The notes beneath the pieces are model-generated. The model saw only the letters and a program-made list of their open reading frames with translations. It was not told where the DNA came from and ran no database searches. Of a DNA stretch of 64,000 nucleotides, positions 1 through 63,600 are shown piece by piece. Where the stretch lies: the NCBI GenBank assembly GCA_916613615.1, contig OU744736.1, forward strand, positions 3,108,330 through 3,172,329, given 5' to 3'. The first letter of the stretch is position 1. Each line of letters begins with the position of its first letter. The stretch is from Steromphala cineraria (Eukaryota > Mollusca > Gastropoda > Trochida > Trochidae). Position numbers and translations under genes: made by a program.

Positions 1-3000
1 ATAATAACAGCAGAGCAAATCTTGATCACTAACCTTGGAGAGAGTGTTGATAATAACAGGAGAGCAAATCTTGATCACTAACCTTGGAGAGAGTGTTGAT
101 AATAACAGCAGAGGAAATCTTGATCACTAACCTTGGAGAGAGTGTTGATAATAACAGGAGAGCAAATCTTGATCACTAACCTTGGAGAGAGTGTTGATAA
201 TAACAGCAGAGCAAATCGTGAGCACTCACCTTGGAGAGAGTGTTGATAATAACAGGAGAGGAAATCTTGATCACTAACCTTGGAGAGAGTGTTGATAATA
301 ACAGCAGAGGAAATCTTGATCACTAACCTTGGAGAGAGTGTTGATAATAACAGCAGAGGAAATCTTGATCACTAACCTTGGAGAGAGTGTTGATAATAAC
401 AGCAGAGGAAATCTTGATCACTAACCTTGGAGAGAGTGTTGATAATAACAGCAGAGGAAATCTTGATCACTAACCTTGGAGAGAGTGTTGATAATAACAG
501 CAGAGCAAATCTTGATCACTAACCTTGGAGAGAGTGTTGATAATAACAGGAGAGGAAATCTTGATCACTAACCTTGGAGAGAGTGTTGATAATAACAGGA
601 GAGGAAATCTTGATCACTAACCTTGGAGAGAGTGTTGATAATAACAGCAGAGGAAATCTTGATCACTAACCTTGGAGAGAGTGTTGATAATAACAGCAGA
701 GGAAATCTTGATCACTAACCTTGGAGAGAGTGTTGATAATAACAGCAGAGGAAATCTTGATCACTAACCTTGGAGAGAGTGTTGATAATAACAGCAGAGG
801 AAATCTTGATCACTAACCTTGGAGAGAGTGTTGATAATAACAGCAGAGCAAATCTTGATCACTAACCTTGGAGAGAGTTTTGATAATAACAGCAGAGGAA
901 ATCTTGATCACTAACCTTGGAGAGAGTGTTGATAATAACAGCAGAGGAAATCTTGATCACTTACCTTGGAGAGAGTGTTGATAATAACAGCAGAGCAAAT
1001 CTTGATCACTAACCTTGGAGAGAGTGTTGATAATAACAGCAGAGGAAATCTTGATCACTAACCTTGGAGAGAGTGTTGATAATAACAGCAGAGCAAATCT
1101 TGATCACTAACCTTGGAGAGAGTGTTGATAATAACAGGAGAGCAAATCTTGATCACTAACCTTGGAGAGAGTGTTGATAATAACAGCAGAGCAAATCTTG
1201 ATCACTTACCTTGGAGAGAGTGTTGATAATAACAGCAGAGCAAATCTTGATCACTAACCTTGGAGAGAGTGTTGATAATAACAGCAGAGGAAATCTTGAT
1301 CACTAACCTTGGAGAGAGTGTTGATAATAACAGCAGAGGAAATCTTGATCACTAACCTTGGAGAGAGTGTTGATAATAACAGCAGAGGAAATCTTGATCA
1401 CTAACCTTGGAGAGAGTGTTGATAATAACAGCAGAGGAAATCTTGATCACTAACCTTGGAGAGAGTGTTGATAATAACAGCAGAGGAAATCTTGATCACT
1501 AACCTTGGAGAGAGTGTTGATAATAACAGCAGAGCAAATCTTGATCACTAACCTTGGAGAGAGTGTTGATAATAACAGCAGAGCAAATCTTGATCACTAA
1601 CCTTGGAGAGAGTGTTGATAATAACAGCAGAGCAAATCTTGATCACTAACCTTGGAGAGAGTGTTGATAATAACAGCAGAGCAAATCTTGATCACTAACC
1701 TTGGAGAGAGTGTTGATAATAACAGCAGAGCAAATCTTGATCACTAACCTTGGAGAGAGTGTTGATAATAACAGCAGAGCAAATCTTGATCACTAACCTT
1801 GGAGAGAGTGTTGATAATAACAGCAGAGCAAATCTTGATCACTAACCTTGGAGAGAGTGTTGATAATAACAGCAGAGGAAATCTTGATCACTAACCTTGG
1901 AGAGAGTGTTGATAATAACAGCAGAGGAAATCTTGATCACTAACCTTGGAGAGAGTGTTGATAATAACAGCAGAGCAAATCTTGATCACTAACCTTGGAG
2001 AGAGTGTTGATAATAACAGCAGAGCAAATCTTGATCACTAACCTTGGAGAGAGTGTTGATAATAACAGCAGAGCAAATCTTGATCACTAACCTTGGAGAG
2101 AGTGTTGATAATAACAGCAGAGGAAATCTTGATCACTAACCTTGGAGAGAGTGTTGATAATAACAGCAGAGGAAATCTTGATCACTAACCTTGGAGAGAG
2201 TGTTGATAATAACAGCAGAGGAAATCTTGATCACTAACCTTGGAGAGAGTGTTGATAATAACAGCAGAGCAAATCTTGATCACTAACCTTGGAGAGAGTG
2301 TTGATAATAACAGCAGAGCAAATCTTGATCACTAACCTTGGAGAGAGTGTTGATAATAACAGCAGAGCAAATCTTGATCACTAACCTTGGAGAGAGTGTT
2401 GATAATAACAGCAGAGGAAATCTTGATCACTAACCTTGGAGAGAGTGTTGATAATAACAGCAGAGGAAATCTTGATCACTAACCTTGGAGAGAGTGTTGA
2501 TAATAACAGCAGAGGAAATCTTGATCACTAACCTTGGAGAGAGTGTTGATAATAACAGCAGAGGAAATCTTGATCACTAACCTTGGAGAGAGTGTTGATA
2601 ATAACAGCAGAGCAAATCTTGATCACTAACCTTGGAGAGAGTGTTGATAATAACAGCAGAGGAAATCTTGATCACTAACCTTGGAGAGAGTGTTGATAAT
2701 AACAGCAGAGCAAATCTTGATCACTAACCTTGGAGAGAGTGTTGATAATAACAGCAGAGCAAATCTTGATCACTAACCTTGGAGAGAGTGTTGATAATAA
2801 CAGCAGAGGAAATCTTGATCACTAACCTTGGAGAGAGTGTTGATAATAACAGCAGAGCAAATCTTGATCACTTACCTTGGAGAGAGTGTTGATAATAACA
2901 GCAGAGCAAATCTTGATCACTTACCTTGGAGAGAGTGTTGATAATAACAGCAGAGCAAATCTTGATCACTAACCTTGGAGAGAGTGTTGATAATAACAGC

Positions 3001-4765
3001 AGAGCAAATCTTGATCACTAACCTTGGAGAGAGTGTTGATAATAACAGCAGAGGAAATCTTGATCACTAACCTTGGAGAGAGTGTTGATAATAACAGCAG
3101 AGCAAATCTTGATCACTAACCTTGGAGAGAGTGTTGATAATAACAGCAGAGCAAATCTTGATCACTAACCTTGGAGAGAGTGTTGATAATAACAGCAGAG
3201 GAAATCTTGATCACTAACCTTGGAGAGAGTGTTGATAATAACAGCAGAGCAAATCTTGATCACTTACCTTGGAGAGAGTGTTGATAATAACAGCAGAGCA
3301 AATCTTGATCACTTACCTTGGAGAGAGTGTTGATAATAACAGCAGAGCAAATCTTGATCACTAACCTTGGAGAGAGTGTTGATAATAACAGCAGAGCAAA
3401 TCTTGATCACTAACCTTGGAGAGAGTGTTGATAATAACAGCAGAGCAAATCTTGATCACTAACCTTGGAGAGAGTGTTGATAATAACAGCAGAGCAAATC
3501 TTGATCACTAACCTTGGAGAGAGTGTTGATAATAACAGCAGAGCAAATCTTGATCACTAACCTTGGAGAGAGTGTTGATAATAACAGGAGAGGAAATCTT
3601 GATCACTAACCTTGGAGAGAGTGTTGATAATAACAGCAGAGCAAATCTTGATCACTAACCTTGGAGAGAGTGTTGATAATAACAGCAGAGCAAATCTTGA
3701 TCACTAACCTTGGAGAGAGTGTTGATAATAACAGCAGAGCAAATCTTGATCACTAACCTTGGAGAGAGTGTTGATAATAACAGCAGAGGAAATCTTGATC
3801 ACTAACCTTGGAGAGAGTGTTGATAATAACAGCAGAGGAAATCTTGATCACTAACCTTGGAGAGAGTGTTGATAATAACAGCAGAGGAAATCTTGATCAC
3901 TAACCTTGGAGAGAGTGTTGATAATAACAGCAGAGCAAATCTTGATCACTAACCTTGGAGAGAGTGTTGATAATAACAGCAGAGCAAATCTTGATCACTA
4001 ACCTTGGAGAGAGTGTTGATAATAACAGCAGAGCAAATCTTGATCACTAACCTTGGAGAGAGTGTTGATAATAACAGCAGAGGAAATCTTGATCACTAAC
4101 CTTGGAGAGAGTGTTGATAATAACAGCAGAGCAAATCTTGATCACTAACCTTGGAGAGAGTGTTGATAATAACAGCAGAGCAAATCTTGATCACTAACCT
4201 TGGAGAGAGTGTTGATAATAACAGCAGAGCAAATCTTGATCACTAACCTTGGAGAGAGTGTTGATAATAACAGGAGAGGAAATCTTGATCACTAACCTTG
4301 GAGAGAGTGTTGATAATAACAGCAGAGGAAATCTTGATCACTAACCTTGGAGAGAGTGTTGATAATAACAGCAGAGCAAATCTTGATCACTAACCTTGGA
4401 GAGAGTGTTGATAATAACAGCAGAGCAAATCTTGATCACTAACCTTGGAGAGAGTGTTGATAATAACAGCAGAGCAAATCTTGATCACTTACCTTGGAGA
4501 GAGTGTTGATAATAACAGCAGAGGAAATCTTGATCACTAACCTTGGAGAGAGTGTTGATAATAACAGCAGAGGAAATCTTGATCACTAACCTTGGAGAGA
4601 GTGTTGATAATAACAGCAGAGCAAATCTTGATCACTAACCTTGGAGAGAGTGTTGATAATAACAGCAGAGCAAATCTTGATCACTAACCTTGGAGAGAGT
4701 GTTGATAATAACAGCAGAGGAAATCTTGATCACTAACCTTGGAGAGAGTGTTGATAATAACAGCA
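1..4765 (-). repeat. 97-copy 49-bp tandem array of an NCAPD3 splice-donor junction
   Basis: The unit is 49 bp and repeats exactly in register: unit starts fall at 1+49k, and the 97th unit ends at 4753, so there is no net insertion or deletion. Homology continues 12 bp further, to about 4765. Copies differ only at a few fixed positions: C/G at two sites in the cagcagagcaaa part, A/T/C in ctAacc, and one G/T near 870. Read on the minus strand, each unit is 26 bp identical to the end of NCAPD3 exon 25 (ending ctctctccaag) followed by 23 bp starting gttagtgatcaagatt, which is the intron start. The donor of the rightmost copy (4736-4737) is the native exon 25 donor. The array begins outside the window, so its true length is unknown. 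It is not coding: 49 is not a multiple of three, and each unit carries a stop in one frame. Confidence 0.97.
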
Positions 4766-7700
4766 ATCAGCTGAGGTGACAGATCAAACCGCTTCAATCT
4801 GCTTTTCAACTCATCTGAGGAAATAAGTAAAACATTAATTCAAAACTTTAATTTTAACTTTCACTGAATTCTTTCTTGTCAATCATGATGACAAATTCTA
4901 CAAAGTAATGGAATGTAGGAACAATGTCGGTATTTTACCTGCAATTTCATTGCGTTTTTCTGCTGCAATATTCTTGGCCAAACATCCGATGACAGCAATC
5001 ACTTGGGGCCAGGTGGACTTCTCATCTGGAATGTAACGTTTCATGAAATTTGGAAAAGAAGACAATGAATATACACATAGAGGTTTGAAAAACCATCTTA
5101 GCTGTTTACAAATGACAGATATCTAATAATGCATAATCAATTGGCAATTTGTTTTTATGTAATGTAGCATTTGTTTTGATGTGTCTTTGCTTTCACAAAT
5201 AAATTTACTACTGTAGAAATATTTGTGAGTAAGCATCACTTTACTGTGGACAATAGTATTGTGATTTTACAACTGCACATTATCATGATGTTGAACATGA
5301 ATCTGTATTACAATTCTGGTTGTCTGCAATACAAGTATTACATTGTAGTTTGATTTATATTTTTTCTATTCATGAAAATGGTTTAGGATTGTTTAACAAG
5401 ATGATTATTTTAGGTAATCACTGCTCCACTCTGGTATCTTAAGCTGGCAACTGGTCAATGATTTTGAAAGGGTGGTGTTAAGCTACGCTAGAGAAAAAGG
5501 AAATTTATGAAATGTCATAAGCATTGACCTAATGAATGATACACAACAGTCGAATGAAGGGGGTCTAACAACCCCAAAAACGTCAGGTTTGACAGTTCTC
5601 CCTCCTTCTTAATAGTCAATGTTTGTTTTGGAAAAAAATAATGATGTCGTTAAATTAGAAATCATTTGAGTGAGTTACCTTCTCCCCAGTTCTCCTCGCA
5701 GTGAGTATCCCAGTACTTGAGCAGGAACTCGTTGTCCATCTTGGGGAAGGACGTAGCAATCTCTGCTAACAACAGCCACGCCCCCTGCAAGACACATGCT
5801 GCACGTGAATGTTGGTTAGACAAAACCTAATGGTTATAATCGTAAAGTAAAAAGTAAAGTTTCTTCCCAAGTTAAATATTTTGCATTTATACTTGTACAT
5901 TCTACAAGAATCACAGACCAAATTCATATTCTAGGATGAGTAACTGACTAAAGATTTGCGTTTAGGACAAAATAGAGCCATGGGCTCTGTAGCTCATCAG
6001 ACTTTTGATGGAAATAGGTTTTTAAGATTCATGGGGTCTAAAAATCTAAAATTTAGAATCCCCACTGGCCAAGGAGCCTACACACAACTTTTCAGCTCTC
6101 TAGACCTTTTAGAACTGGAGAAGAAGATGACAATAGGTTTTTAAGGTTTTGACCCCTGTGACCCCATTTGGGGGTCATGGGGTCACAAAATCTACAATTT
6201 AGAATCCTCATTTGCCAAGGAATCTGTACATCAAATTTCAGCTCTCTAGAGTCGTTGGTTCTGGAGGAGAAGGTCGAAAATGTGAAAAGTTTATGGATGA
6301 TTGGATGGACAGATTGACGGCCGGACGCCATGCCATGCCATGAGCCAATCGGGTCTTTCAGACCTGATGAGCTAAAAATGTGAGATATGTAAGTACAGAG
6401 TGAACAGCTGAAAATAAGATTGATATCTCAATGTTGACAGCAACAAATTCCATTAGTCAGATGGAGACTGCACTTGACATATTGTTGATAAAGTGAGTGA
6501 GTTATGGTTTAGCACCGCTTGGGGAATATTATTGGGCTCACCTTATTGTTCACAGTGCCCATGTGAGTCTGCAGATGATTAAAGAGAGATTTCTTCAGCT
6601 TCCCCTGCCTCGACCAGTGTTGACACGCTCGCTGTAGATACCGTCTGGAGATGATATAGATGTGATAAGGGATGACTTTAACTGTTTTCTCAGTTTAATT
6701 CTACGGATATTGAAAAGTCATTTGCACAAAAGTTGGATCTTTCCCCTGTTTCTATTACATCACTCAATGAATCAAAAGCTAAATAAACTCAGAGAAAAAA
6801 ATCCAAGTGAGACATATGATTGTGATTTGATGAATCATTGCCATTCAATCCAGAACAATAATTAAAACATTTTGAAAAGAGAAAGTACACAATACACAAG
6901 GGGCAGATAAAAGATTTTTGCTTGGGTCTGGTGCACCCTATAGGTGTCATAGTACAACTATTGGAATGATTACTTTGTAAAAGAAGCTATTGGGCAAGAG
7001 GAAAACTAGCTAAATGACTAGATAGAGAAGGTATAAGACTTCTATCTTTTAATCGGGTACTATACAAACTAATACACAACATTTGATATATTCAAACTCT
7101 ATTTGCTGGGGTGCTCACTTCTACTAGATCCGCCAACGTTCATTTTCCAGTAACCTGAAGGTGATCAGTTGAATAGAATGAGTAGAGAATAAAAGAACTG
7201 ACCTGAGATCGAGACTCTCGTACTTGGTCATGATATCCAGCAGGCTCCACACCAGTCTGTGACTCTCCTCATGGGATCTGACAGGTGATAGGGAAATAGA
7301 AACATGTCATCTGTTCTCGCAGATTGTTAGAAAGAGTCTCATTAGATAAAACCTTTGACTCCAAAGAAAGAAGACAAAATTGCACCAAGAGCCTTATTTC
7401 AAGCCTGTTGGTGAAAAAATAGGGTTGTAATATCTGAAATTATCCGTTAAAAAGTTTAAAATAGAGGTAAATGACTGAGTCATGAAAAAAAAATCAGTTA
7501 TTTTTTTTTATCAATATTTATATATTCATTTTTTCAATTAAAAATAACTAACCCAAACATTTCAAGAGTAGATGGTCCACATACCTATCGAAGGGAGCGA
7601 TGTTATGTAGAATGATTTCCTCCAGCACCTCGATACACTTGTCCTGCAGAGTTGTCTCCCTGTCCATCACAAGGGGGAGAACTCCGTCCAGCCACACGCT

Positions 7701-10700
7701 GCAGAGGGAGATGAAATGTACATTACCAACGTAACAAGGTGGGAGAAAATTGCCTGACTCCCGCAATATGACAAAAAGAATATTACAGAGAAGAGGGAAT
7801 CAGATATCAATGGAATAGCGAGGGTTATAACAAAATTTCAACATGTTTCTTAAAAGTCACATAACACACTAGCTTCGAAGTGTCATAGTGTTTTTTTTTT
7901 TGCTGATTCGATAGTAATTGGCCACTATAGTTTCATTATGGCAAAATACAAAAACTCATGATGAAACAATATTTTGGCTTAATTGATACATGTAAATATG
8001 ACAGATATATAACTACATATGTTAACAAGATAGAATGACTATGTATGTGTACATATCAACGCACCTGTGAAGCTTGGTGTCTGTAGGATAGAGCCAGAGT
8101 AGATCGGTTAGACACGTCATGGCTTGTTTACGCACTGACAGAGACGGGTCAGAACATCGCTCTTCCAGAATCTTCAAATCCTAAAACCATTTTCATAGGA
8201 TGCCTTTAGTCATGAGCCGCACAGGCAGGTAGTAATAATTTGTAAACAATTGCAGGAATTTAAATACCGGTACTCTTTATTTCCTGCGACATTTTGAAAA
8301 TCAAAACTAGCCAGAAATTATTCACGCAAATTGGTAATTTGACATAAATTTGAACAAATCGTATGAAAACTACAAACATAACTGAATATACCTAGTGTCC
8401 TCCCATCATTTTCATTTAAACACATTTCGATTATAACATTATTTTTCATTTTGTTTATCAGGAAAAGAAAGACATGAATAATAACAGAAAGAACTATCAT
8501 TAAAACTTATCTTGATTTTGTGTAAATGAATCATGAATATAAGAGTTTTGATGATACACACATTTCATGATCAAGATATAGCACTATGATATCACTAAAC
8601 ATGTCATAGGACACCAAAATATGATTACAGTTGTTATGAAAATATTCTTTCCACAAATACCTCCTTCCTGTAGTCTGGTGCCTCGAACTTGATCATACAC
8701 TCCAGGGCTTGTAGCGCAGCCTTCCTTACGTTCACCTTCTGGTCATGGCTGCGTCGTCTCAACATGGAGATTACTCCATCGTCATCAGCTAGGTCTGACA
8801 CAAAAGTATGCATATTAAACAAAATATTAAGTCGTCTTAAACAATTGCTGTCACTGACTTCATCATTTAGATCTGCCATAAAAATATGAGATAAACAAGA
8901 TGTGTTTGTGAAACACGAATGCCTCCGGATGCATCCTGCTCGCTGTGTCAAGGTCAAGGTCACAAGGTCAAATGTCATGGTGTCATCTGAAAGGTCTCAT
9001 CACAAGGGATCCATATGTCAAGTATCAAAGACCTAGCTCTGACCAATCAAAAGTTATGACCAAGGTTAAAGTTTTTGTGGACAAACGGACAGACGGACAG
9101 GTGAAAAACAATATACCCCCGGAATCTCCGATTCGGGAGCATACAAAATTTATTTTTCATCACAATATTTAGGTCTTTCTCTTTATCAACTAGATCTGCC
9201 ACAGAATAATCAAAAGCTATGAAAACTGAACCTACTTGCGTTAAATCTCAAAGTAAGATGCTTCATCGACTTGATCTGCCACAAGAATATGATCCAGGAA
9301 CCGATTAGTTATAATAAAACCACTTAGATTGCCGTTTTATCAACTAGATCTGCCACAGAATGATCAAAAGCTATGAAAGCTGAACCTACTTGCGTTAAAT
9401 CCCGGGGTGAGTTCAATCAAGTTGAAGGGCGTCTTGACCTGGCTGTCGACAACAACCCCTTCTGCTGTCTTCTCCGCTGTTGATCCCTCCGCCTCTACCG
9501 TCTCGTCTACATTGCCTCCTCGGGGGCTCGGCTCTGGGGAGATTACAGACAGTTAAGTGTATTCACAAAATGTACATCAATTACTTTTTTGTGTGTGTAA
9601 AGTATTGAACTTTGAACATCAATTGAAAAGGTCAGATTATAAGATGAAATGAAAGACTTTTGAGAAACAGGGGCCTACCAAAAAACCCTGCTGTACTGAG
9701 CAGTAATTCACAGAAAAGTCTATATATAGATCAGTCTATATTCTGGAATATTTCTATCAGGACATATATGCTTTCTCGAACACACTGGCATCGGATTGTC
9801 CTTTGTCCTGATACTTCCATACCTGTTTGTGGGACAGTCCTGACCTCGACCCCAGGGGTCGGGATAACTCTAGGTAGCGGTCCCTGGCGGGGTCCCAGTC
9901 TGGGGGTCACCATCTCTCGTAGAGTGCTGATGATACCCCGGTCTCCTGTTGTCAGGAGGTTTGCAAACGCAGTGATAGCTCGGGTACGTACACTGGAAAA
10001 AAATGGATAAAGCAAGTTGTAGTCGTTTATGCAGACACCAAAAGGCGTTTGATGCATACATACTACCAGTTATATCAAGAAATAGAAGCTGTTTGTATCT
10101 GCCTAGAACTTGTATGTCAAATTTCAAACATCAAAATAAAATGCATTTAAACCATACTCATATCACTTTGTCAATAACCTTGCATGGCTTAAACCAAATG
10201 TGCTCAGATTGAAAAAGCCAATGGCATCCTATCCTCATTGCTAACTTGCTGAACCGAAAGGTCGCTCGACATAACCCCTTTAGATCAGAAATGCAAAGGA
10301 AATCAAACAAGAAGACATAGTCATCAACATCCCCCGCCAAATTAGTTTTCATTAAAGCCCCAAACATTTTCCTACTAGGGCCACAACTCTGTATTATTTA
10401 ATTTTACAAATCTCATTTTCAAACTCCATCAAGGTATTGATACCCTGAAGACACACACCAAATTTGGTTATCCTATCTTAAATTGGTCTGAGAAAATTTG
10501 ACTCCTTTGAAGGCACCCTTGAACAGTCTCCAAAAGGTCTGAACAAGGTCAATAACTCAATGAAAAATAAATTTGTGCCGGGGGATAATAAGTAATCACT
10601 GGAATTGTTATATGTGTGACATTCATAGGAGCAACACCACTACCCTCCGCCCCTCACTCACAAAATGAAATCATGTACCTATAATCCAGCGCAGAATCAT

Positions 10701-13700
10701 CTCGAGACACTGATAAGAGTAGGAAGCATAACAGAGGTGAAGTACTCACGTAGGAGCGATGTCGGAGCATCTTGAGATGAGGAGGATGACGAGGAAGCGA
10801 TGAGAGGCGAACACTGTCTGGTCTGCTGGTAGATCTTCTGTAACACCGAAACATCTCCACTTAGTACCATATAACACAGAAATTCAACTTGCACAAAATC
10901 TCATTATCAAAAACATGTTTGGGGCTTGCTGTTTGCTCCTCTGTAACATGGCATCATCTCTAGTGAGTACCATAAAAATAGAACACAGAAATGCTGCTTG
11001 CATGAAATCTTAACGTAAATATTTTGGAAGTTACCATTTAAATGTCTCTCGGCAGAGGCCAAAACCAGGGAGACAACATCCAGTGCGATGACACGGTTAT
11101 TGATCTGGAAATACACAAGTCTGTTAATACAAATACCAACTCATTAGGATGACATTTAAGTTTGTAGCAAGAGAAGAGTTCTTCATCTGAAGTGTCCATT
11201 CATGAGAAGAAATCAAGTCAGGGTTTTTCAAAGTACAGTGGTCCCTCGTTGTAACACTTGCTTTGGGGTCCAAAAAACTTACCCCGCGTTACAAGCAAAC
11301 AGCGGTACACCGAGCGAGTAAGTTGGCAGAAAAACAAAGAGTTGACTGCAGCTATTTATCATCTAAAACATCTTTCTGCAACTATTGGATCATTAATTAC
11401 ATTAAATGTTTGTTTTGTGTTGTTTTTGTTGACAATATTACTGAACAATGTTAAAAACAAACAGATATGATTTCATGAAAAAAACTAATTTCCATTTGTC
11501 ACGAGAAATGCAGCAGCAGCAAACATATCGAAATAAAAAGCTATATAAAAAAAATCTTGTGTTTTTGTGAGGACTTGTTTTTGTTTTTGTGAGGACAATG
11601 TCAACACAGAAACAAATATTTATATCACTTACAGCAAGGTTAAGCTTGTTTATATTGCAGACAAATTATTTACATTGAAATAATCTACATGTCCGTTATC
11701 AGCTGGGAAATCTTAATTTACATTACGCTGGTTAGGGGCCTCAGCAAAACCAAAGCCTGCCCTGATATGGATAAACAATTTAATATCAAAGCTCCCCACA
11801 CCACCATATTAGAGTAAACACTGTAGCGAGTCCTTTATTCGGTGTAAGGAGTACATCTCGTTCATTGTTTTGTAAACATGGCTTTGCAAATCGAGTCAAG
11901 ATCGAGTGGACATTTACGATCTTTTGGTTTAATTGAATTATACAAAGGTGGAAATACTTTATTTTTTGACACATTGTTTAAATTTTATATGGCGGTATGG
12001 ACAACAATCACTTGCATCGTAAGTTGAAACCAATAATAAATTGAAACAAACACGTGGTTTTCAACACTTTTGATGGAAGTTAGATAAACGATTGGCTTGT
12101 ATGTTTTTTTTGTTTTTTTGTAAACTAAGCTTGAAACATTGATGAGATTAGTTGTATATTTAGACGTTAACATTATCAGTTTTACTCACAAAGAAATTGA
12201 TATAAATTTTGGGAGCCACAGTTTACCCTGTGGATAACCCAGCCCGCGTTACATCAAAGGGCGGTATAGCGAGGGAACACTGTATAACTCTTAAACACAA
12301 ATGATATTTGGGTTATAAATGATGGGGGAATATTCAAGACAATGATAATATTTCAACACATCATTGGATAGGAATGACACTATAGGATCTAAATCAATGT
12401 TGCATGTGAAATGAATCAAAAGTTTAGGATTGTATACATGGTATAAAAATCTGCCAAGTAATAATAAAATAAGTAAATTAAGAGTATCAGTTTGATACCT
12501 TTTGATGTCTGGAGAGTCTCTTGATCCATTCCATCATCTTGACGTACGCTTGGTCCGGGAGATCGTCCAGCAGGGTCGTTATTGTCTGGAACATAGGAAC
12601 ATTTCTGTTAGTTGAGCATGGCACTATTATCTTAGGTTACACGGCTTCCTTTCACAAAACAACCTTAACTAAGGTTGGCCTTAACTCCCATTTTTAAACA
12701 TTGCACCAAGAAGATCTTTCTTGCACTGATATTATTTACCTTTAGAAGTATTTTTAGTGTCATGAAAGTTGTAATATGTTGCATTTTTTTAACAAACTGA
12801 ACTGTCGGGTGAGGGGGAATATGAGACAAAACTAATTGGACTCTTAACAATCTATACATATAATTTAACCTGAAGAATAAGGAACAATACTGAATCAACA
12901 GGTACAGAGATGAAGCAGTTTTGTAGCCGTGTAAGCCAAGAGCCATTACCTGTGCCACTTTGGTCCTGTATTCTGACTTGTCCGGAACTTTGGTACACAG
13001 GTGTTGGATCAGGTGTGTGTAAGGGGGTATAACTCTCTCATCTCCCTGCTTCTTCACAAATCTGTAAGATTATCATTGGCATATTTGGAATAAAATAAGA
13101 GAGCTTGGAAACCCCTGAGTCTAGTATTGACAGGTACCGGTATGTATCAGTGGTGTATTATATCAGGAACATTAAAGCTTCTTCATCCTGGGTATGTGTA
13201 TGGCTTCTTTGATCCACTAATTATCTTCACAACATTTTGTCTTAGTTTGAGCAAGTTCTGCAGTCCCAAGATGAGATAACCAATGAGCATCTACCATCAG
13301 TAGGAGGCAATTACGCAAAAAGAAGCATTGGAGATTCAAAATCCAAAAAAATCAGGATAAGAATTGAAAGGAGATTCCTATGACATGCAGTCTCAATTGC
13401 TGAAGATGCTTTAATATGAGGAAGGGGAAGATCTCAAATTGATAAAAATACTCTCTCAAACAGCACCTGATGAAGTCGACAGCGTTATCCCGAGTGTTTA
13501 GGACAGGACGGGGGATGGTTTGTGCACACACAGCCTTGTTGTTACCGATCAGCATCAACACGTTCTGGAGCAGGTACTTGAAGATCTGCAGACGATAGTG
13601 AGTGAGTTATTGTTTTACGCCGCTCGGGCAATATTTCAGCCATTAGCGGCGTTAATGCACACAATACACACTGTCATAAGCATATGATCAACCCAAACGA

Positions 13701-19068: not shown

Positions 19069-22000
19069 ATGGAGTTGCTGAAAAAAGCTATCATCCAATC
19101 AAGAGGTATATATATATACATATTTATAATGTGTCGTTGTTTGACTCAGTATTCATGTTGGAAGTATTTGCTTTATTTATATCTCCGTATGTGTATAAAT
19201 TCCCAAGTAGATGTTGTGTCCCCGATTAAATGAAACATTGGTCTGAATAGATCTAGCCTAGTGGAGGATGGTCTACTAGATGCACATGCTAAACAGATGT
19301 CAGAAATAAGAACAGATGTCAGAAATAAGAACAGATGGATATGAATGACTTTAATTTGGTATGCAACAAATTACAAATTAAAAGATTGTTATTGAGTACC
19401 GATACTCAAATTGTCAACTTCTCTGAGAATGAGGATTAAAATTACATATTAAAGAGAAATATTCAAACATATTAAAGCCTATTGACTTAATGATTTTAGA
19501 ATAAAATGCAAATTAATTCACTTAACATTAAGTGAACAATGAGCATAGTGACGTTTCAGTTCTATTTGTCAACATTTTTATTTGATCATCCAATTCCATT
19601 AAAGTTAAGTATATGTATAAATGTTTTTAAAATGTCTCTCATGAAAAGATATAATTATATGGCAATCAAACAGGTATTACTTCTACTCTGGCAGGGAGAG
19701 ATTATATGATGTCTCTATTTAGCATACCGGTAACTTTTTGATCCTAAAGTTTTGATCATTATGCAATTCTTTCAGTCAAACAAGTTTCATAATTTTATAC
19801 CAAGTTTAATATGAAAATAATGTTGAAAATAAGCCCATTTTTTTTTCAAATTTAGACATATGATCATAAGATATTTTTTTATTGTAAATATCTACTGTAT
19901 AAAGTGTCTTTTAACGTATTTTCTTTGTGTCATTTAGTTAAAGATTACTGCAATTCAGATTTTTTCTGGCCATTCAAGTGAAAACCTTGCTCTTGATTGC
20001 TTTATCATTGTCGTTGCTTTAGGTCCCATCACTCGGCATCTGACTGGTGTCCGAAACACAGCAACTTTGAGTGCGACACGTGATCTGCTGGAGAAGGAAT
20101 TGGAAGATATCCGAGATGCCGGCACTTGGAAAGCTGAGCGAGTCATCACATCTCCACAAGGGGCTTCTATCCATGTTCAGGGCCGGAAGGATAATATTCT
20201 CAACTTCTGTGCTAATAACTATCTTGGTTTGTCAGTAAGTGTTCTCTCTTTTGGTTATTGATAAAGAATTCAATGAGTTTTTAAGTATGTTTGAATTAAA
20301 ATGAAAAGGATTACATTTAATGGAACATTGTTTCATTTTTTTGAGTTTCATGTGTTTTACTTTTGAAAGAAAATCATTTGTACCTGTGTTGATTAGTAAA
20401 TTTTAAATGATGTTACTGTTACTTAGTGGTTGACAAGACTTTGATTATAGTGAGAGTTGTCTCCCCTCAGAGTCGCCCAGACGTGATCAAGGCAGTCACA
20501 GAGAAGCTAAGAAATGGCAGGAAAGCTTAAATTACAATTTTGACTTGAACCTGTTATTGCTTGTTGGAAAGTTAGCCAGGACCTTGTTTAAATGTTACTT
20601 AGAGCTTGACAAAGCTTTGGCTACAATTAGAGTTGTCTCCCCTCAGAGTCACCCTGAAGTGATCGAGGCAGGCAAGAAGGCACTGAACACTCATGGCGCA
20701 GGTCTCAGCTCCGTCAGGTTTATCTGTGGAACACAGGTGAGTGGTAACAACACCACACCTTCGATTTGTTTATTAACATTGCTTGTTAAAAGGGTGAAAT
20801 GTCATGGTGAATCCACATTCATTGAATCATATTCTTTTTAAAAAAAGTCTGTTAAAGCTCTAAGGTGATCATATATTTGATGTTTGTAGGTGTAGTTTGG
20901 ATTTGAAAAGGTTTAAGTATTTCTTTATGTTTTGCAAATTTTAACTAAGGGTAATATATTAAACTGAGATTTCTATGTGTTTGACTGCAGTACTAACTTA
21001 GGCCGATGATGAGATCTTTAAAAAATGATTGTTAATTTAAAATCCTTCCTTGCATTAATTCAGGATATCCATAAAGAGCTTGAAGAGAAGATTGCTAAGT
21101 TCCACGGGAAGGAGGACGCAATCCTCTACATCAGCTGTTTTGACGCTAATGCCGGTATCTTTGAGGTGCTGCTATCCCCCGAGGATGCCGCCATCTCAGA
21201 TGAGCTGAACCACGCCTCCATTATTGATGGGATACGGCTCTGTAAGGCTCAGAGACATCGCTACAAGCACAGGGACCTTGCAGGTGGGTGAAGACATATG
21301 AGTAGCGATGTTTGAGCTGATGCCCTGCACTGCTGAAGTTTACTTAGAGAGATCTCGTCAAGATAAGATCATTCTTGTGGAAAATATCTCAAGATTTAGA
21401 AATAGACATCACTACAAGCACAGGGACCTTGTAGGTGGGGGAAGACAGAAGAGTATAGGTGCCTCATTGCATTATTTTTTATAAAGTGTGATCTAGTAAA
21501 GATAGTATTTATCTTGTGGAAAATATTTATACAAGCAGTTAACACAGGGACAGTGTAGACAGGAATTATCCAGGAAAATATTTTTGTGATATATATTTCC
21601 ATATGTGAATTTTGCTGAAAAGTAGAGAGTAACGTAATCATGTGGCAGCATTCGGATGTGATACACTCTAAAGTATGGGATTGAGATATTGTCACTTGAA
21701 TCAATCTTTATAATTAAAGCAATAAACAAGTAAGTATTTCATATCATTGTTATGATTCCAGATCTGGAGGGAATCCTGAAGGAGACACAGAACCTACGTC
21801 AGCGTCTCATCATATCAGATGGAGTCTTCAGCATGGACGGGAATGTTGCTCCACTCAAGTAGGAGAATAAGTTTTACAGATCTATATGGTGGATTTATTT
21901 TGACAACATCTTATTTCTTGAAATGATTGGCCTGAAAGGAATAATCATATCGAAGCCAATGATTTCTATCTCAGATGGAATCTTCATTAAAGGGAATAAT

Positions 22001-32000: not shown

Positions 32001-33230
32001 ATGTAACCATCTTTTATATAATTGATTATGGCTGCCATCATGATTTTTTTATCTTTTAAATACTAGTCTTCTTTTGGAAACGACTAGAGCTTGAACAAAC
32101 ATTAATACATGAATGATATAATCATGATAAGTTAACAAGCAGTAGGTTTTTGTATAACTTTTTTGTATATCTATGGCTGAATTGGTGACCATCTTGTACT
32201 TTTTAATCTTCAAAATGCTACTTTTATGTGGGCATCCGTATTAATTTCATTATGATATCATGATTGGTTTAGGTGTATCCATTTAAATGTCATTCATTAC
32301 CTACAGGATGGTGGCCACTTACATTTGTTTTGTAGTGAATCATTAATATGATTTCAAGATTATTTCACTGATGGTTATGCTGCATGGGATATTGAGAATC
32401 CCAAAAGTACAGATTTTTCAAGGAAAATGAATGACTGATTGAGAGGAAAGTCATAAACACAGCAATGCATGTGACACGTTTATTTTGTTCACATAATATT
32501 TACATGTCAAGTGACCATGAGATGTCTTTCATTAAAGTATCAATTTATTTAACACTCATACAGTACTATAATGGTAAACATTTATTATGACAAATCAAAT
32601 TTCCTTACTTTTCTTAATAAACCCTTTTCGATTTTCATCTGCATATTTATTCCACATCAACTTATCATGTAGATTGCTAAAGACAAAGCTTATTGTAGAC
32701 AAGTTTTGTGTAAGTTGTTATTCTTAGAAAGAACATATCACTGTCATGAGAATACATTAGTCCATAACTTTTATTGCATACACATGGGCCATGGCCATAT
32801 AGCATATCAATTGGGTCAGGTTGATTATGCAACAGACTAGCAGCTGACACTGTGATGCTAGCAGCCTGCCTTGGGATGTGTATTAGACAGCATAGTGGAA
32901 TATCTGAACTCTGGTTGACCCCTTATGTGTGGTATTTAAAGGAATATAAGGGAGATACCATTGTTTAAAATTTAACATGGTTAATGTGATTTGGTTTTTG
33001 CAGCTAGTTGCCATAAAGATTTTAAACAAATTAATCAATTATGTTTGTCTTTCATCTAAATTTTTTTAGAAACACTTAAAAATATAGAACAACTTGCAGG
33101 ACAATCTTAAATATTCCATATTTAAGATAATATTATGATTAGTAAGTTAAAACTAGAGAATTTATATGGTGCCAGTGATCACTTGATGAAAGCTTAAAAT
33201 TTGATAATTATGATGTGTCATCTGCAGCTG
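32001..33230. other. Intergenic, no gene seen
   Basis: About 1.2 kb of AT-rich sequence without a supported gene or repeat. Confidence 0.6.
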
Positions 33231-33727
33231 AAAAGTCAATATAGCTGCTACTGCGGCCATCTTGGATTCTCAAAACTTAAACGTCTACCTTTCTGTGAGG
33301 AATCACCATGGGTATAACATAATACAATTTCAGAATGATATCTGTATTCGTTTAGAAGGAGTAGTCTTTTTCATGAAATCTAATTGAAAATTCAATATGG
33401 CTGTCATGGCGGCCATCTTGGATTCTCAAAACTGAAACGTCTACCTTTCTGTGAGGAATCACCATGGGTATAACATAATACAATTTCAGAATGATATCTG
33501 TATTCGTTTAGAAGGAGTAGTCTTTTTCATGAAATCTAATTGAAAATTCAATATGGCTGTCATGGCGGCCATCTTGGATTCTCAAAACTGAAACGTCTAC
33601 CTTTCTGTGAGGAATCACCATGGGTATAACATACTACAATTTCAGAATGATATCTGAATTCGTTTAGGAGGAGTAGTCTTTTTCGTGAAAGTTTACAGAC
33701 AGACGGACGGACGAGGTGAGCTAAAAA
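33231..33727. repeat. Three 156-bp tandem units ending in a (GGAC)n tract
   Basis: gcggccatcttggattctca recurs at 33253, 33409 and 33565, a 156-bp period. Copies 2 and 3 are nearly identical. The array ends in acagacagacggacggacga and ggtgagctaaaa, like the end of the element at 5990-6374. It is probably the core of another pearl-like element. Confidence 0.85.
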
Positions 33728-34799: not shown

Positions 34800-36916
34800 A
34801 AAGAAAATAAAGAGTTTAATAACAAAGATTTATTAACTGTTGAAGATTAAAACCAATACACATGTACATGGAAAAAACATTTGTAATTTAATTCTGTTAC
34901 ACAATGTTATGACTTTCAACCATCAATATGATGGATGCTTCATCTCTGTTTAAGTTATTGGGATTGCATCGACAAATTGATCTTAATGGTAAAGTTTGTC
35001 ATTCTATTACATTCCATGTGAAAACCATAATTACTTCGTACTGGACTTCCATGTTTCAGATAGTCAAAAGGACAAATTCTTCATATCTCAAATCACACAC
35101 TTTCTTATTTACAATTTGGAATGGTTAAGATATTATGATATTACAAAAAATACAAACAATTTAGGAATCAAATCATAGACCTAGATACTACTTTGAATCA
35201 TCGCAAGTAGTCACAAATAAATAATTAACATTTATTGCTAGCCAAGATGGAACAATGCTACATTTATTGATAATTGTAATCTTTAAATATATCACAATTT
35301 GTTTTGGCCACAATGCAATAAATAAAGATACATAAATTGTAACACAAAATTGTGTTTACTCCATTGTGACATACATAATAGCTAAACTAATTAGGTTCCA
35401 TTTATCGCCAATCATGATTTAAAATTAAAAACATTTAAAATAGGTTACTATGACAACAAAGCATTTGTAACAGCAGGTGAAACAGGTCTAATTGCAGCAG
35501 TGCACTCAATACAGGACACAGACAATATATGAACAAAATTCTGAATAAAATCAAGCAGCACTGATAAGTGCCAAAAAGCACTAAATTCATCCTGTTCAGT
35601 CTACCATATTTGACCTATTAAGCGCCCTGGGCAGTTAAAAAATTGGAAAAAGGGGGGCTTATTGAAATGTCTTCATTATTCAGTCAAATGAAACAAATGC
35701 ATATTTCCCCCCTAAATCAACAATCCATACATCATGACAACTAACATTCATGTTGTTTATATATATTTAAAAGATTTCATGTAAAAAATACATTATCATT
35801 TAATTTTTCTAACTTCCTACATTATAACAGCAAGATAACTTATGGATATGTGACCAGAGTTTCAACATTTCATGCAAAATTGATAGTCATTTTTCTACAA
35901 AAATGGTAAAAACTATATCAAGATATGAAAAGATTTATCATTACAGATTTAAACACTTACTTACTAATCATTTCAATAAAAGTTGTTCATGCTCAATATG
36001 TAAATGCATAGAATGGGTTATGATATGGGTTATGAGGGATGAAAAGAAGAATTACAAGTCTTAGTCACAAAAAAATATTTTTATGAAATGAACACAATTA
36101 TTAATTTGTTATCTTTCACCATCAAGATACATTTTGTCAAACTGGAGTAAATTCAATCGTATTGATATTGAACCATCATTTTAACAGTAACTGGCCAGTT
36201 TGATTCATTTTAACCTTCCTTGTTCAATTAGGGATAGATATAATGGAAAGGCAGAACAGGATTTAAATTGATATCAATCGTCAATAAACCAAGCATGTGG
36301 TAGTAAAATCAGAATTAAACTGTAATTGTGGTCAAAGGTTCCATTTACCCCACTGCTGTTTTAGCTGGGTAAATTTCTTGTTGGCAATTTTATTTGAAAA
36401 GTGTCACAAATTACAGTTCTGACATATTCAACCCATATTTAAAATCCATAGGGAGCAGAAAAACCTGAAAAAAGAACCTGAATTTCTTGTCATCTCATCC
36501 AATGTTTTAGCTATATTTCTAAGTGTTGGATTCTGACTAACAAGAGCATAGAACTCTGCTGATAGAATATTCATCAATGTTGCATATATATCTTAACAGA
36601 TTTGTACTAAAGAGTACAAAGGTGTTTGCAGAAATATTTTATTTATTTTGCCTATTTCTCTATATCTTCTTATCAAATTTTGACTTAAATGAATAAGGGA
36701 CCATAGTGAATTGTCCCCATGTCTCTCTCTACCTCAATATTTTCATGTAAAATACTGATTAACGACAAAATTAAACCCTGCTGATAGAATCTTTGTTCAT
36801 TTTTCCAATGTCTCAACCATGTTATCCTGTCTGACTCTGACTAACGTATAGACCGCAAATGCACTATTGAAAGAATCTGAATTTGAATGCTTGTCTGATA
36901 GCCCATGTGATCAGCT
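34800..36916. other. Intergenic and probable 3' UTR of HTATIP2-A; no other gene seen
   Basis: AT-rich. It includes ctattaagcgccctgggcag near 35617; a related 'attaagcgccccc' phrase occurs near 44014, suggesting another dispersed repeat. Bases just below 36917 should be the 3' UTR of the minus-strand reductase, with TTTATT (AATAAA on the minus strand) near 36640. Confidence 0.5.
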
Positions 36917-47843
<10,927 letters not shown>

Positions 47844-49700: not shown

Positions 49701-51334
49701 CACACTAGGGCTGTGTATGGCATCGCATGAGTTGTGGAGATTTGAAGATTTTATGTGCGATTCAGATAATGCATCCGCATCATTAACAGAATTAAATTGT
49801 AAAGAATGGTTGGGTTTAATTAATCCGTCACTGTTGCATAGGTTGAATCTTGTACAATTTATACACTTTCAATGTCAACAATGGTGTTAATAATATTCAA
49901 AATGCAGTTTGAATAGTGATATAATTTATTGAACGATGCAGATCGATAGCCAAACCCATATACAAAAATATTATTACATGATATTAATATATTAAATACA
50001 GCCATTATCTGCAGAAAAAGAAAACAGTGTCGCCATTTGAGCTGCAGTTGCATTTTTACCCAGTTCATGTTCATGAAAATAATTATCGATTAAAGAGACA
50101 TATACACATCGTATCAAGATCTATGTTTCCGATGAAACATACCATTTATGACTACACTAATATTATCGACCGTAATGTTTCCACAACGGACAACGTAATA
50201 GATGAAAGTAAAAAAATCCCCACAAATAACACCTTTATTCTAAAATTTCAGAATAACTTTTCACAATATCGGATTCAGGAAACGATCCCGATTTTAACAG
50301 ATCTAAACATCTTGGGGCATCAAAAACACAAAGGGATATACATATTTACACACTTTACAGATCACACCTGATCAGTCAATGGTGTTATTCAACAATAGTC
50401 AAATTAATCTTGCAAAGTCAACCTTTTTTAGAAGCGTATGTTACGTAATAAACATGTTAACATACATATGCTTCCACTCTGAAATAAACTTACCATTCAA
50501 AGCATAGAGTATAACCGATGCTACAAATTGTTCAAATTTATAGTAAAATCTAACGTGAGCAGGGATAGGCCGAATGATCAAATCCAAACTTTTTTAAAGC
50601 AACCAATCCACATTCTCTACTTCAAACCACAGCAACAAGCTACTTGTAGCAGGTGGTTAGAAATGTCTAAAGGAACCTTTGTTTGGAGAAATTGGCTGAT
50701 ATAGCATATGCAAGTCAATAAGTTATCGATATCGATGACTATTATTAGAGTACTTTCATCATTTCATCTTTTGAAGAAAACCCTAAATCCAATTTAGACA
50801 ATAAACACAAATCTAATCATCTAATAATGAAGTGAGTATTTTTTTCACACGAGCAGAGCATCTTTTTAATTACATATATTTTTGAAATTTTCTACGCGTG
50901 ATTTAATTTGACATTTTGAATATTTGCTTTGAAACAGCAAAAGCAAAATTGACAATCATTCTGATAATTTCTAAATGTGCCCACCATTTCATCAACGTCA
51001 ACGCAAACGGTTGCACCCCACAGGCATAGAACGTCGTCAAACAAGTTTTCCAATTGGGGATGTGACAAAAATTTTAACTGAAACGTCAATGGTCGCCATT
51101 ATACTTAAGGTATATAAAACTCCTCAAAATCTCTCCCTCCATGAAAAAAACCCCATTCATTTCGTATCCAAGTATCTTTCTTACAAATATAACAAACCCA
51201 TATTTTAATGATGTCTAAGATCTGAATGAAGAACTCGTGTATGTAACATCTTCCATTTTCCCACAAGGACGTTGATTCATCACGGCTGGTAAAGTATTGG
51301 GATCCAAGGGTTGCAACGTTTAATTGCTGACAAG
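49701..51334. other. Intergenic and 3' flank of HTATIP2-B, no gene seen
   Basis: No recognised protein. A 114-codon open frame at 50027-50371 has no familiar motif and biased, low-complexity content, so it is not called. The part just below 51335 should be the 3' UTR of HTATIP2-B. Confidence 0.5.
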
Positions 51335-55160
<3,826 letters not shown>

Positions 55161-55632
55161 TCTGTAGGATGGATCATTGCCTTGAATGAAAATATACAAA
55201 AACACATAAGATATAATCATTGTACATACTATATCATATCAAGAAAAAAATCCACCATTACGAAGATTGATTCATGTTCTGAGAAAATTCAAACTTGAAT
55301 GACATCGAAATGTATCATATTGCAATATCTGCCTCTGCTTGTACCGTCATTCCTAGCTCAAAGAATGGAAATTACAATAAATCAGCATAATTGCTTTGAT
55401 GAAAACATTAACGGTGGGAGGAGAAGAACAGTCGTCCGCTCCGATGCAACCATTTTTTCCCCAAGGAAAATAAAAATGTCATTTAAATCTGTTATATCTA
55501 TATCTAAATATTCAGCTTAAATAAATAAGATATATGACTCTAAACAGTTACATGTATATCACCAATAAAAATATTACAATATCATTTTTTATAAGCGAAT
55601 GGATAATTATGGGAATAAGGGATACCTTATAC

Positions 55633-60611: not shown

Positions 60612-63600
60612 ATGGCGACCACCGACACACCAGGGGCAATTCAGCCAGAAATATCAGAACCGTTTACAGAAGATTCAGAAGATGTTGGAAAGAACATGGA
60701 TAAAGAGGAGAACTTTTCTAACCACATTCCGTTTCAAACAGATGAATCTAAACCAGAACAAGAAGTCGAATCCCAAAGGGAGGTAATTCAAGATCAACGC
60801 CTGAAATTTTCTATTTCCGCTTTACTTGATCTTCCGCAAGCGAACCATCACCAAGAGGACAAAACCAGTTTAACTGAGACAAATGGTAAGTCGTTTATCT
60901 TAATCTTAAGATATTTAAGATAAACGTTTCATATTTTTGACCATACTATAAATAAAAGGGAAGGAAGAATAATATAATTATCATTCATGGTATATGTCTC
61001 TTAAGATTCATTGTATATTTATATTTTATTATATATATATTTTATTATTTATATGTACATAACTCAAAGCTTTTTTGTAACCATTCTTCTGTAAAACACA
61101 ACTTACATTACGGGCAATCTAAAATCAGTGATTCAGATGGAACAATTCAATCATGTTTATTGTGTCTATCAAACAAAAGAAACTTGATACAACCATACTA
61201 TATATACTTCTATACTTTTACTACTAAATCTTTCTTAGCTCGATAGTTCCATTGAGTCGTTTAAAATTGTTGTATATCAATTATTACGATGAAACTACAT
61301 TAAAACAATGCTTTTTCAAACAATATTTATCAATACGAATGAAATTTTCCCTCACTAGATGTTGCTCATGCATGATTACGACTGCAGATAAATAAGTATA
61401 AGGAAAATATTGGTCGCGTGTGTATCTGTCTCATAAAGGATTTTGTATTATGAAAAAAATATATATATGTTATTTTCATAAGTTCGTATCCCTTTAGTCA
61501 CAGTATTTTGAAAGCTTATTTCTCCGGAACATATAATGTTTGTATACTCAGTGATATCTTCAATTAATAATGCAATGGACTCTATATTTCAGACTGCCCC
61601 GAAGGTTTAAGCCAGACATGTAAAGAGCGGTACACAGAGAAGATCACCCTGTCTATGTCCTCCAAGGGTAAGAGGAACAGAACCACCTTCTCTACGAGAC
61701 AGCTTCAGGAGCTAGAGAGGGCCTTCAGGAAAACTCACTACCCCGATATATTCACCAGGGAGAAACTTGCTGCTCGCATCAAGCTGCCGGAATCCAGAAT
61801 ACAGGTAAAACTTATAGATAGTCTTATATCTAGAATTAAAATCCAAAATTCAAAACTCTGATATATAAACTTGGAAAAATTGCTGTCCGCATCAAGCTGC
61901 CGGAATCAAGGATACAGATGACATTTATAAATATTCATACATCTTAAATTTATATTCAAAGTTGGAAACTCTGATATATGAATTTGAAAAAATTGCTGTC
62001 CGCATAAAGCTGCCGGAATCAAGGATACAGGTGAAACTAATAAATATTCATACATCTAAAATGTATATTCAAAGTTCAAAACTTTGATATATTGAACTTG
62101 GTGAAATTGCTGTCCGCATCAAGCTGCCGGAATCAAGAATACAGGTGAAAGCTATAGATATTCATACATCTAAAATATATATTCAAAGTTCGAAACTTTG
62201 ATATATGAACTTAGAGATAAAATTGCTGTCCGCAACAAGCTGCCGGAATCAAGGATACAGGTAAAAAGTTAAAAAGATATTCATAGGTCTAAAATTTATA
62301 TACAAAGTTCGAAACTTTGATGTATGAACTTGGAACAAATTGCTGTCCGTATCAAGCTGCCGGAATCAAGGATACAGGTGAAATTTATAAATATTCATAT
62401 AACATATATATTCGTATTGAAAGTTCAAATTCTGATATAAGAACTTGGAGAAATTGCTGTTCGCATCAAGGTGCCGGAATCAAGGATACAGGTCAAAATT
62501 ATAAATATTCATACGTCTAAAATTTATATCCAAAGTTCGAAACTTTGATGTATGAACGTGGAGATAAAATGTTGTCCGACCAAGCTGCCGGAATCAAGGA
62601 TACAGGTGAGACATATGGTTTACATGCCTGTACTCCCCACCCTGCAATAGTCTTTAGGGGAAAACTGCGGTTCGTATCAAGCTGTCGGACTCAAGGAAAC
62701 AGGTTCACTACTCTAAAATAGTTTTTTAGAGAATAACATGCTGATCAAAGCTGCCGGAATGAATATTCAGTTGAAAATGAATGAGTTATTCGTAGTAAGG
62801 TTAACTGGACAGAATATCCCGATACTCTATATCACCTCAGGGGATTTTCATCAGGAAATTGAACCATGGAACATTCAACCACAGGTTTCCGTGAATGTGG
62901 ATAAAAAGTGTAGCAAAATTGCTATTTGTATTAAGGTATCGGAATGTAGAAAACAAGTAAAATCAAACAAATAATCGTTAGATCTATCGTCAAACTAAAT
63001 ATTCTGATATATTTACCATGAAAATAGTTTTATCTGAATCCCGAATCAACGGATACCAGTGATCATTGACAACAATAAACCTTTTTTTATCTGAAGACAT
63101 AAGTTGGATTCTATTAAAAAAAACCAAATCATTCGTCGTGAGTTCTTACAACGTGAAAATGTACATATTCGAACCCAGCATTGCAATACAATTTACTCTT
63201 TGGAGTCTTAGTATATAGGTTTTTGAAAGCAATTGCTGGATGTTATCAGCTCTGCTTTTGCATTTAGAATATAAAGAACTTGCGAAACTCTAGCAGATAA
63301 TTAACGTCAGTATAATAACATGGTAGATTTATTAAACGGCGATATTTTCAAAAAATTTTGTGCCATATTTTTGAAGAATATGTTTAAGTTACGAGCAAAT
63401 GTCACGTGAGATCCCGTTGCATTACTTCCACTTTATTGTACTTTAGGCCATGTGGCCCATATACAAATAAAATTCTGTTCTGTTCTGTTGTTCTGATATT
63501 TTCATCGGAAGCGTAATAAAAATTCATTTCACATATCAATGGTGTGTGATATTTCCTTCTAGGTATGGTTCCAAAACCGACGTGCTAAGTGGCGGAAGAA

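Follow-up and report, generated by a model that had tools for sequence, protein, structure and literature searches.

The window, i.e. the whole stretch of 64,000 nucleotides that was analysed (G000:C43:3108330-3172329, from an assembly of 1.27 Gb in 281 contigs), opens with a long tandem array that lies exactly on a splice junction of NCAPD3, a core chromosome-condensation gene. The features concerned are:

1..4765, minus strand: 49-bp minisatellite with 97 donors in the window and 102 in the assembly (TRF and assembly)
4715..4737, minus strand: first 23 nt of the intron with the native donor GTTAGT, the intron part of unit 1 (sequence)
4738..4814, minus strand: native NCAPD3 exon of 77 nt, ...INTLSK, whose last 26 bp form the exon part of unit 1 (homology)
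4939..5025, minus strand: preceding NCAPD3 exon (DEKSTWPQVIAVIGCLAKNIAAEKRNEIA) (splice-site scores and reading frame)

According to TRF, positions 1-4765 hold 97.2 copies of the unit with 98% matches and 0% indels. Read on the minus strand, each unit joins 26 bp of exon end to 23 bp of intron start and has the form CTGTTATTATCAACACTCTCTCCAAG|GTTAGTGATCAAGATTT(G/C)CTCTG, with few variants. This anatomy, free of indels, had been given in a preliminary description of the locus and is borne out, as is its claim that every copy keeps a GT donor: within the window GT is retained in 97/97 donors (AAG|GTTAGT in 89, AAG|GTAAGT in 7 and AAG|GTGAGT in 1), and eight distinct unit types are found among these copies. 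At least 97 donors in a row had been announced, which holds for the window, but the array continues past the window edge and the assembly raises the count to 102, all in register. The last in-register donor is found at window -212, and TRF places the far end of the array at L009:9293 (contig position 3108092, ~238 bp beyond window position 1). Across the full array, GTTAGT occurs 93 times, GTAAGT 7 times and GTGAGT twice; AAG|GT is present in 102/102 units, and the unit types number 46, 37, 6, 5, 4, 2, 1 and 1 copies. The next NCAPD3 exon (CTG TGC GAG GCT...) begins at window -553, and the array fills 4,972 bp (94%) of the 5,290-nt intron. Given the length of the array and its strict 49-bp register, a chance origin is excluded.

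Homology on both sides corroborates that the array sits at an NCAPD3 junction with the exon ending at 4737/4738, as had been proposed. For the exons preceding the array, comparison with condensin-2 subunit D3 (PDB 9f5w_D) gives an E-value of 1.6e-06, and joining the exons on either side from donor 1 gives a match to the same chain at E 2.8e-31. Here the join NTLSK|LCEAG aligns to DALQRLCRAS, gap-free at the junction. The acceptor of the native exon (window 4814-4738) reads TTTCCTCAG|ATG.

Donor choice and the reading frame

Among the in-window donors, donor 1 alone keeps the frame and avoids a stop. With donor 2 the transcript gains 49 stop-free nt, after which the next exon is read out of frame and terminates; the added length and the frame shift had both been predicted. 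The third donor was said to "usually" meet a stop. The stop is indeed present, but "usually" is too weak, since every in-window donor from the third onward places one inside the insert (95/97 donors). The expectation that distal donors lead to truncation thus agrees with the translations, by stop or by frameshift. Given the gap-free match of the joined exons, together with the stops or frameshift that follow from later donors, we infer that donor 1 is the protein-making donor.

Splice-site strength was scored with human frequency tables, and the scores are crude: on this scale donor 1 obtains 4.4, against 8.5 for the GTAAGT copies and 8.3 for the GTGAGT copies, so that 9/102 copies are stronger than the native donor. 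In pairing with U1, the common donor has a duplex energy of -7.5 kcal/mol, and the strong copies reach -11.4 to -11.8 kcal/mol. Best-scoring candidate donors were also taken for other exons of the gene (n=13), of which 12 lie between -5.7 and -8.6 kcal/mol, a span that includes the common donor; the thirteenth, at -2.1 kcal/mol, is probably misassigned. Since the nine copies out-score donor 1, and since downstream repeat donors are used in human IFI6 (see below), some use of distal donors is likely.

Every unit doubles as an acceptor (ACTCTCTCCAAG|G). With the human table its score is 2.2; the true acceptor of the intron obtains 1.6, and those assigned to other exons of the gene up to 10. Because each copy is, on these crude scores, about as good an acceptor as the true one, recursive or corrective splicing is possible.

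Modelling predicts weaker folding for the array RNA than for shuffled sequence (z +5.0) or tandem-shuffled units (P 0.003); its donors come out as less often unpaired (0.43-0.44) than the average array position (0.56). We attach no function to this modelled weak folding.

Known relatives, probable origin and apparent tolerance of the array

The preliminary description knew of no described equivalent. This is incorrect: the mirages of amphioxus and a donor minisatellite in human IFI6 precede it. The sections of PMC3087553 used here describe amphioxus globin genes in which exon-intron boundaries are duplicated in tandem in the manner of a minisatellite. According to them, such duplications had been named mirages earlier in amphioxus Adh3, mirages show length and somatic instability, and the Adh3 data together with globin RT-PCR suggest that regular splicing is undisturbed by their presence. 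Excerpts of PMC3902484 report repeats at splice sites in lancelet PGBD5 and cite that mirages in Adh and TnC give no aberrant mRNAs. For human IFI6 (6-16/G1P3), a minisatellite with multiple donors was described by Turri 1995, as cited in the portions of PMC4526556 and PMC2572611 consulted; the former states that two downstream repeat units serve as donors, so that three mRNAs are made. Excerpts of PMC2812944 deal with new introns and with repeats at human exon-intron boundaries; intron gain via tandem duplication of an AGGT site is the subject of PMC4974935 and, as the Rogers model, is cited in the excerpts of PMC3087553. Among open-licence papers, none was found on NCAPD3 with a minisatellite and none on donor minisatellites in bivalves; for molluscs nothing relevant and on VNTR donors nothing usable was found.

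The NCAPD3 unit holds an authentic exon-intron boundary, as homology on both sides indicates, and the array is a very large mirage of an already known kind. For the amphioxus mirages (Adh3, BflGb6, BflGb9, PGBD5 and TnC) the excerpts give 2 to 7 copies, where a number is stated, of units of 10-160 bp, against 102 copies of 49 bp in NCAPD3 of the present 1.27-Gb assembly, which is larger than amphioxus genomes. As in the IFI6 minisatellite, the repeat units supply splice donors, here in 102/102 repeats. Downstream donors are used in IFI6, however, according to the portions cited, whereas in NCAPD3 later donors would destroy the frame: none of those in the window is predicted to give an in-frame, stop-free coding isoform of the IFI6 type. 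With the AGGT duplication as outlined in the excerpts, the array has in common that GT...AG segments, potentially open to splicing, result when an AG|GT is duplicated; it differs in that the duplication took place at a junction in use and enlarges an existing intron. The copy number, well above those given for mirages in the parts of the literature used, is reached in a gene where errors should be costly. The locus offers a natural experiment on how the spliceosome selects one of about a hundred near-identical donors in a single pre-mRNA, and it indicates that a repeat lying precisely on a splice junction is, to all appearances, tolerable. If the host is not a cephalochordate, mirages would be no cephalochordate peculiarity.

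The ends of the array contain traces of its origin. Upstream the exon reads ...CAGCTGATTG|CTGTTATT, and the distal-most unit passes into the unique intron ...GCTCTCCTGACTAC. When GCTCTC is joined to CTGTTATT, CTG is common to both parent sequences. Units ending in C, the form that is continuous with the unique intron, make up 9/102 (indices 9, 23, 73, 84, 85, 91, 93, 95 and 101, counted from 0). Seven of them are in the distal third, the distal-most unit among them. The arrangement suggests that the first copy may have arisen by microhomology duplication and that the G form spread later.

Variants at +18 are somewhat clustered in the window (38 runs against 48.9 expected, P 0.015). The variants form a mosaic in which, whatever the offset, no more than 10 identical units follow one another. 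This pattern fits unequal exchange better than a single repeated assembly block. Tandem arrays are frequently misassembled, and the length or even the existence of the array might be an artefact, but the mosaic order of eight unit types, the unique sequence flanking both ends and the abundance of tandem arrays here (23 with units >=25 bp and >=2 copies in the 200 kb sampled) all argue against it, and we consider an artefact very improbable.

Taken together, the array is most probably a young, near-neutral mirage that arose by microhomology duplication, was expanded later and is spliced at the exon-proximal donor. A tandem duplication would have happened to span the exon-intron boundary, the first copy joining intron ...GCTCTC to the exon at the 3-bp CTG microhomology, and unequal exchange or slippage would then have expanded it into a minisatellite. 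The spliceosome would normally pick donor 1, since pairing across the 77-nt exon should favour the donor nearest its acceptor, and the array would leave with the intron at next to no cost. Distal donors are probably little used, and near-neutrality is argued by analogy with amphioxus. There may be a further reason for tolerance: because each unit is AAG|GT, whatever is mistakenly kept when a later donor replaces donor 1 starts with GT, ends with AG and might still be spliced out, a secondary removal that would leave the final mRNA unchanged.

The same AAG|GTTAGT units could also act routinely as acceptor and then as donor, such that the 5.3-kb intron would be lost stepwise, n x 49 nt at a time, and the mRNA would always be identical (recursive or ratchet splicing). 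The juxtaposed AG|GT in each unit, the pyrimidine-rich stretch in front of it (ACTCTCTCCAAG|G) and the slightly higher score of the unit acceptor compared with the true one (2.2 vs 1.6) are compatible with such a ratchet. Nonetheless, position -3 is a disfavoured A, a lone step of 49 nt may be too short, and the scores come from a human table on which acceptors elsewhere in the gene reach 10; we regard routine recursive splicing as unlikely.

Alternatively, it might be argued that the fraction of transcripts that are truncated or decay, and thereby the dose of condensin II, depends on copy number or on which donor is chosen. Whereas the stops and frameshifts from later donors and the 9/102 copies stronger than donor 1 would permit this, the array displays no sign of constraint (variable columns 1/26 in the exon part vs 5/23 in the intron part, Fisher P 0.086, not significant), and amphioxus mirages are reported, in the sources excerpted, as leaving splicing undisturbed. 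Clustering of the variable columns within the array is likewise not significant (P 0.54). A regulator of this type appears highly improbable, and the roles suggested earlier (buffering of donor choice, U1 titration and condensin II dose), which the preliminary description had itself labelled as inference, find no support in this analysis. The array most likely does little.

A second donor array and other local duplications

A second array was found 57 kb away in a homeobox gene, and hence the NCAPD3 array is not the sole donor array in this genome:

61595..61804, plus strand: homeobox exon (Pax6/paired-like homeodomain), with the next exon from 63563 (Pfam and PDB match)
61764..62661, plus strand: second, more diverged donor array with a unit of ~113 bp, the native one plus seven copies (repeat comparison)

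The homeodomain matches Pfam Homeodomain at E 8.8e-24 and has Pax6 as its best PDB match (E 3.1e-26). Its unit combines 41 bp of exon end with ~72 bp of intron, and GT is found in 6/7 copies (AT in 1/7). Weaker matches to the unit occur at 62662 (37/47 bases) and 62916 (33/47 bases). In a comparison of six decoy copies, from which the seventh and more decayed one was left out, divergence amounts to 4.9% in the exon part, 21.1% at +1 to +6 and 24.3% in the intron beyond +6, a roughly fivefold difference in favour of conserved exon parts. The contrast is also seen in the number of variable columns (exon 6/41 vs intron 38/73, Fisher P 1e-4), persists in G/C columns (P 0.002) and A/T columns (P 0.0009), and is retained without the worst-aligned copy (5/41 vs 26/73, P 0.008). 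Of the six changes in the exon part, four were judged by eye to be synonymous in the native frame; random changes would be so in 25.6% of cases. By a scan statistic, P is 0.0007 for this array and 0.18 to 0.99 for five other arrays in the window, each with just 2 to 4 units to compare. Selection on the copies, short conversion tracts and exchange with a paralogue are candidate explanations for the conserved exon parts. The predicted folding of the homeobox unit RNA is not significantly weaker than that of tandem-shuffled units (P 0.55).

A more general idea, which we put forward tentatively and think rather doubtful, is that donor-side mirages ending in AG|GT are self-correcting, their copies being possible recursive sites and wrongly kept stretches being removable. 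If true, an intron could reach about a hundred competing donors at little cost, such mirages would be incubators of recursive splicing and of new introns, and in the homeobox array it would be selection for splice-competent copies that has kept the exon parts conserved.

Local duplications were collapsed by hand from 44 BLAST rows, which together with the NCAPD3 array gave 17 loci (excluded were short TRF arrays lacking a BLAST row, as well as the pair 52013/55635, whose members are separated by 3.6 kb). Six of the 17 loci hold a junction, against 4.3 expected for placement anywhere (P 0.24) and 8.1 for placement in genic space (P 0.92). For the loci in genes the count is 6/10 against 3.3 expected (P 0.07), with an exon table that is partly approximate and two of the six junction loci (9182 and 10824) on exons unconfirmed by homology. 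As the enrichment is non-significant, a duplication process targeted at junctions is not claimed. The 19.8 kb beside the window (L009 and L010) contain local duplications at L009 2116-3013 and L010 3947-6351, clear of the part of L009 (about 6200-8980) in which NCAPD3 exon regions were recognised. Donors are not enriched in the minisatellites of 20 stretches sampled along a single contig (200 kb in total, with 2,500 bases masked; 23 arrays, mean rank P 0.51, 3/23 below 0.1). The top copy number in this sample is at least 56.5, for a 177-bp satellite that fills its whole 10-kb stretch; because this is a lower bound, the NCAPD3 array is not claimed to have the highest copy number.

Several single duplications in the window were noted as well. 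A presumed NCAPD3 exon end with its intron start is present at 9336-9401 and 9182-9247 (97% identity), and a presumed NCAPD3 acceptor region at 10824-10901 and 10927-11010 (73% identity); both exons are unconfirmed by homology. The start of a GCAT exon with its acceptor (CCCCTCAG|AGTCACCC) at 20593-20674 is duplicated 176 bp upstream at 20417-20498 with 83% identity, and the exon join aligns gap-free to PDB relatives of GCAT. What is probably the end of a GCAT exon, including the donor (CTTGCAG|GTGGGT), at 21253-21304 has a copy with 90% identity 151 bp downstream (21404-21455). The threefold 178-bp repeat at 44074-44621 carries CAG|GTATGA on the minus strand and may include a short exon, a candidate reading that gave no Pfam or PDB match. 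Two similar minus-strand genes lie at 36800-40500 and 51300-55300; their Pfam match is weak (E 0.15), and we presume from their appearance that they are HTATIP2-like. Finally, a 156-bp unit (TGAAAATTCAATATGGC...) is repeated in tandem at 33229-33690, L010 5422-6351 and L026 324-1096, and resembles an element with internal repeats.
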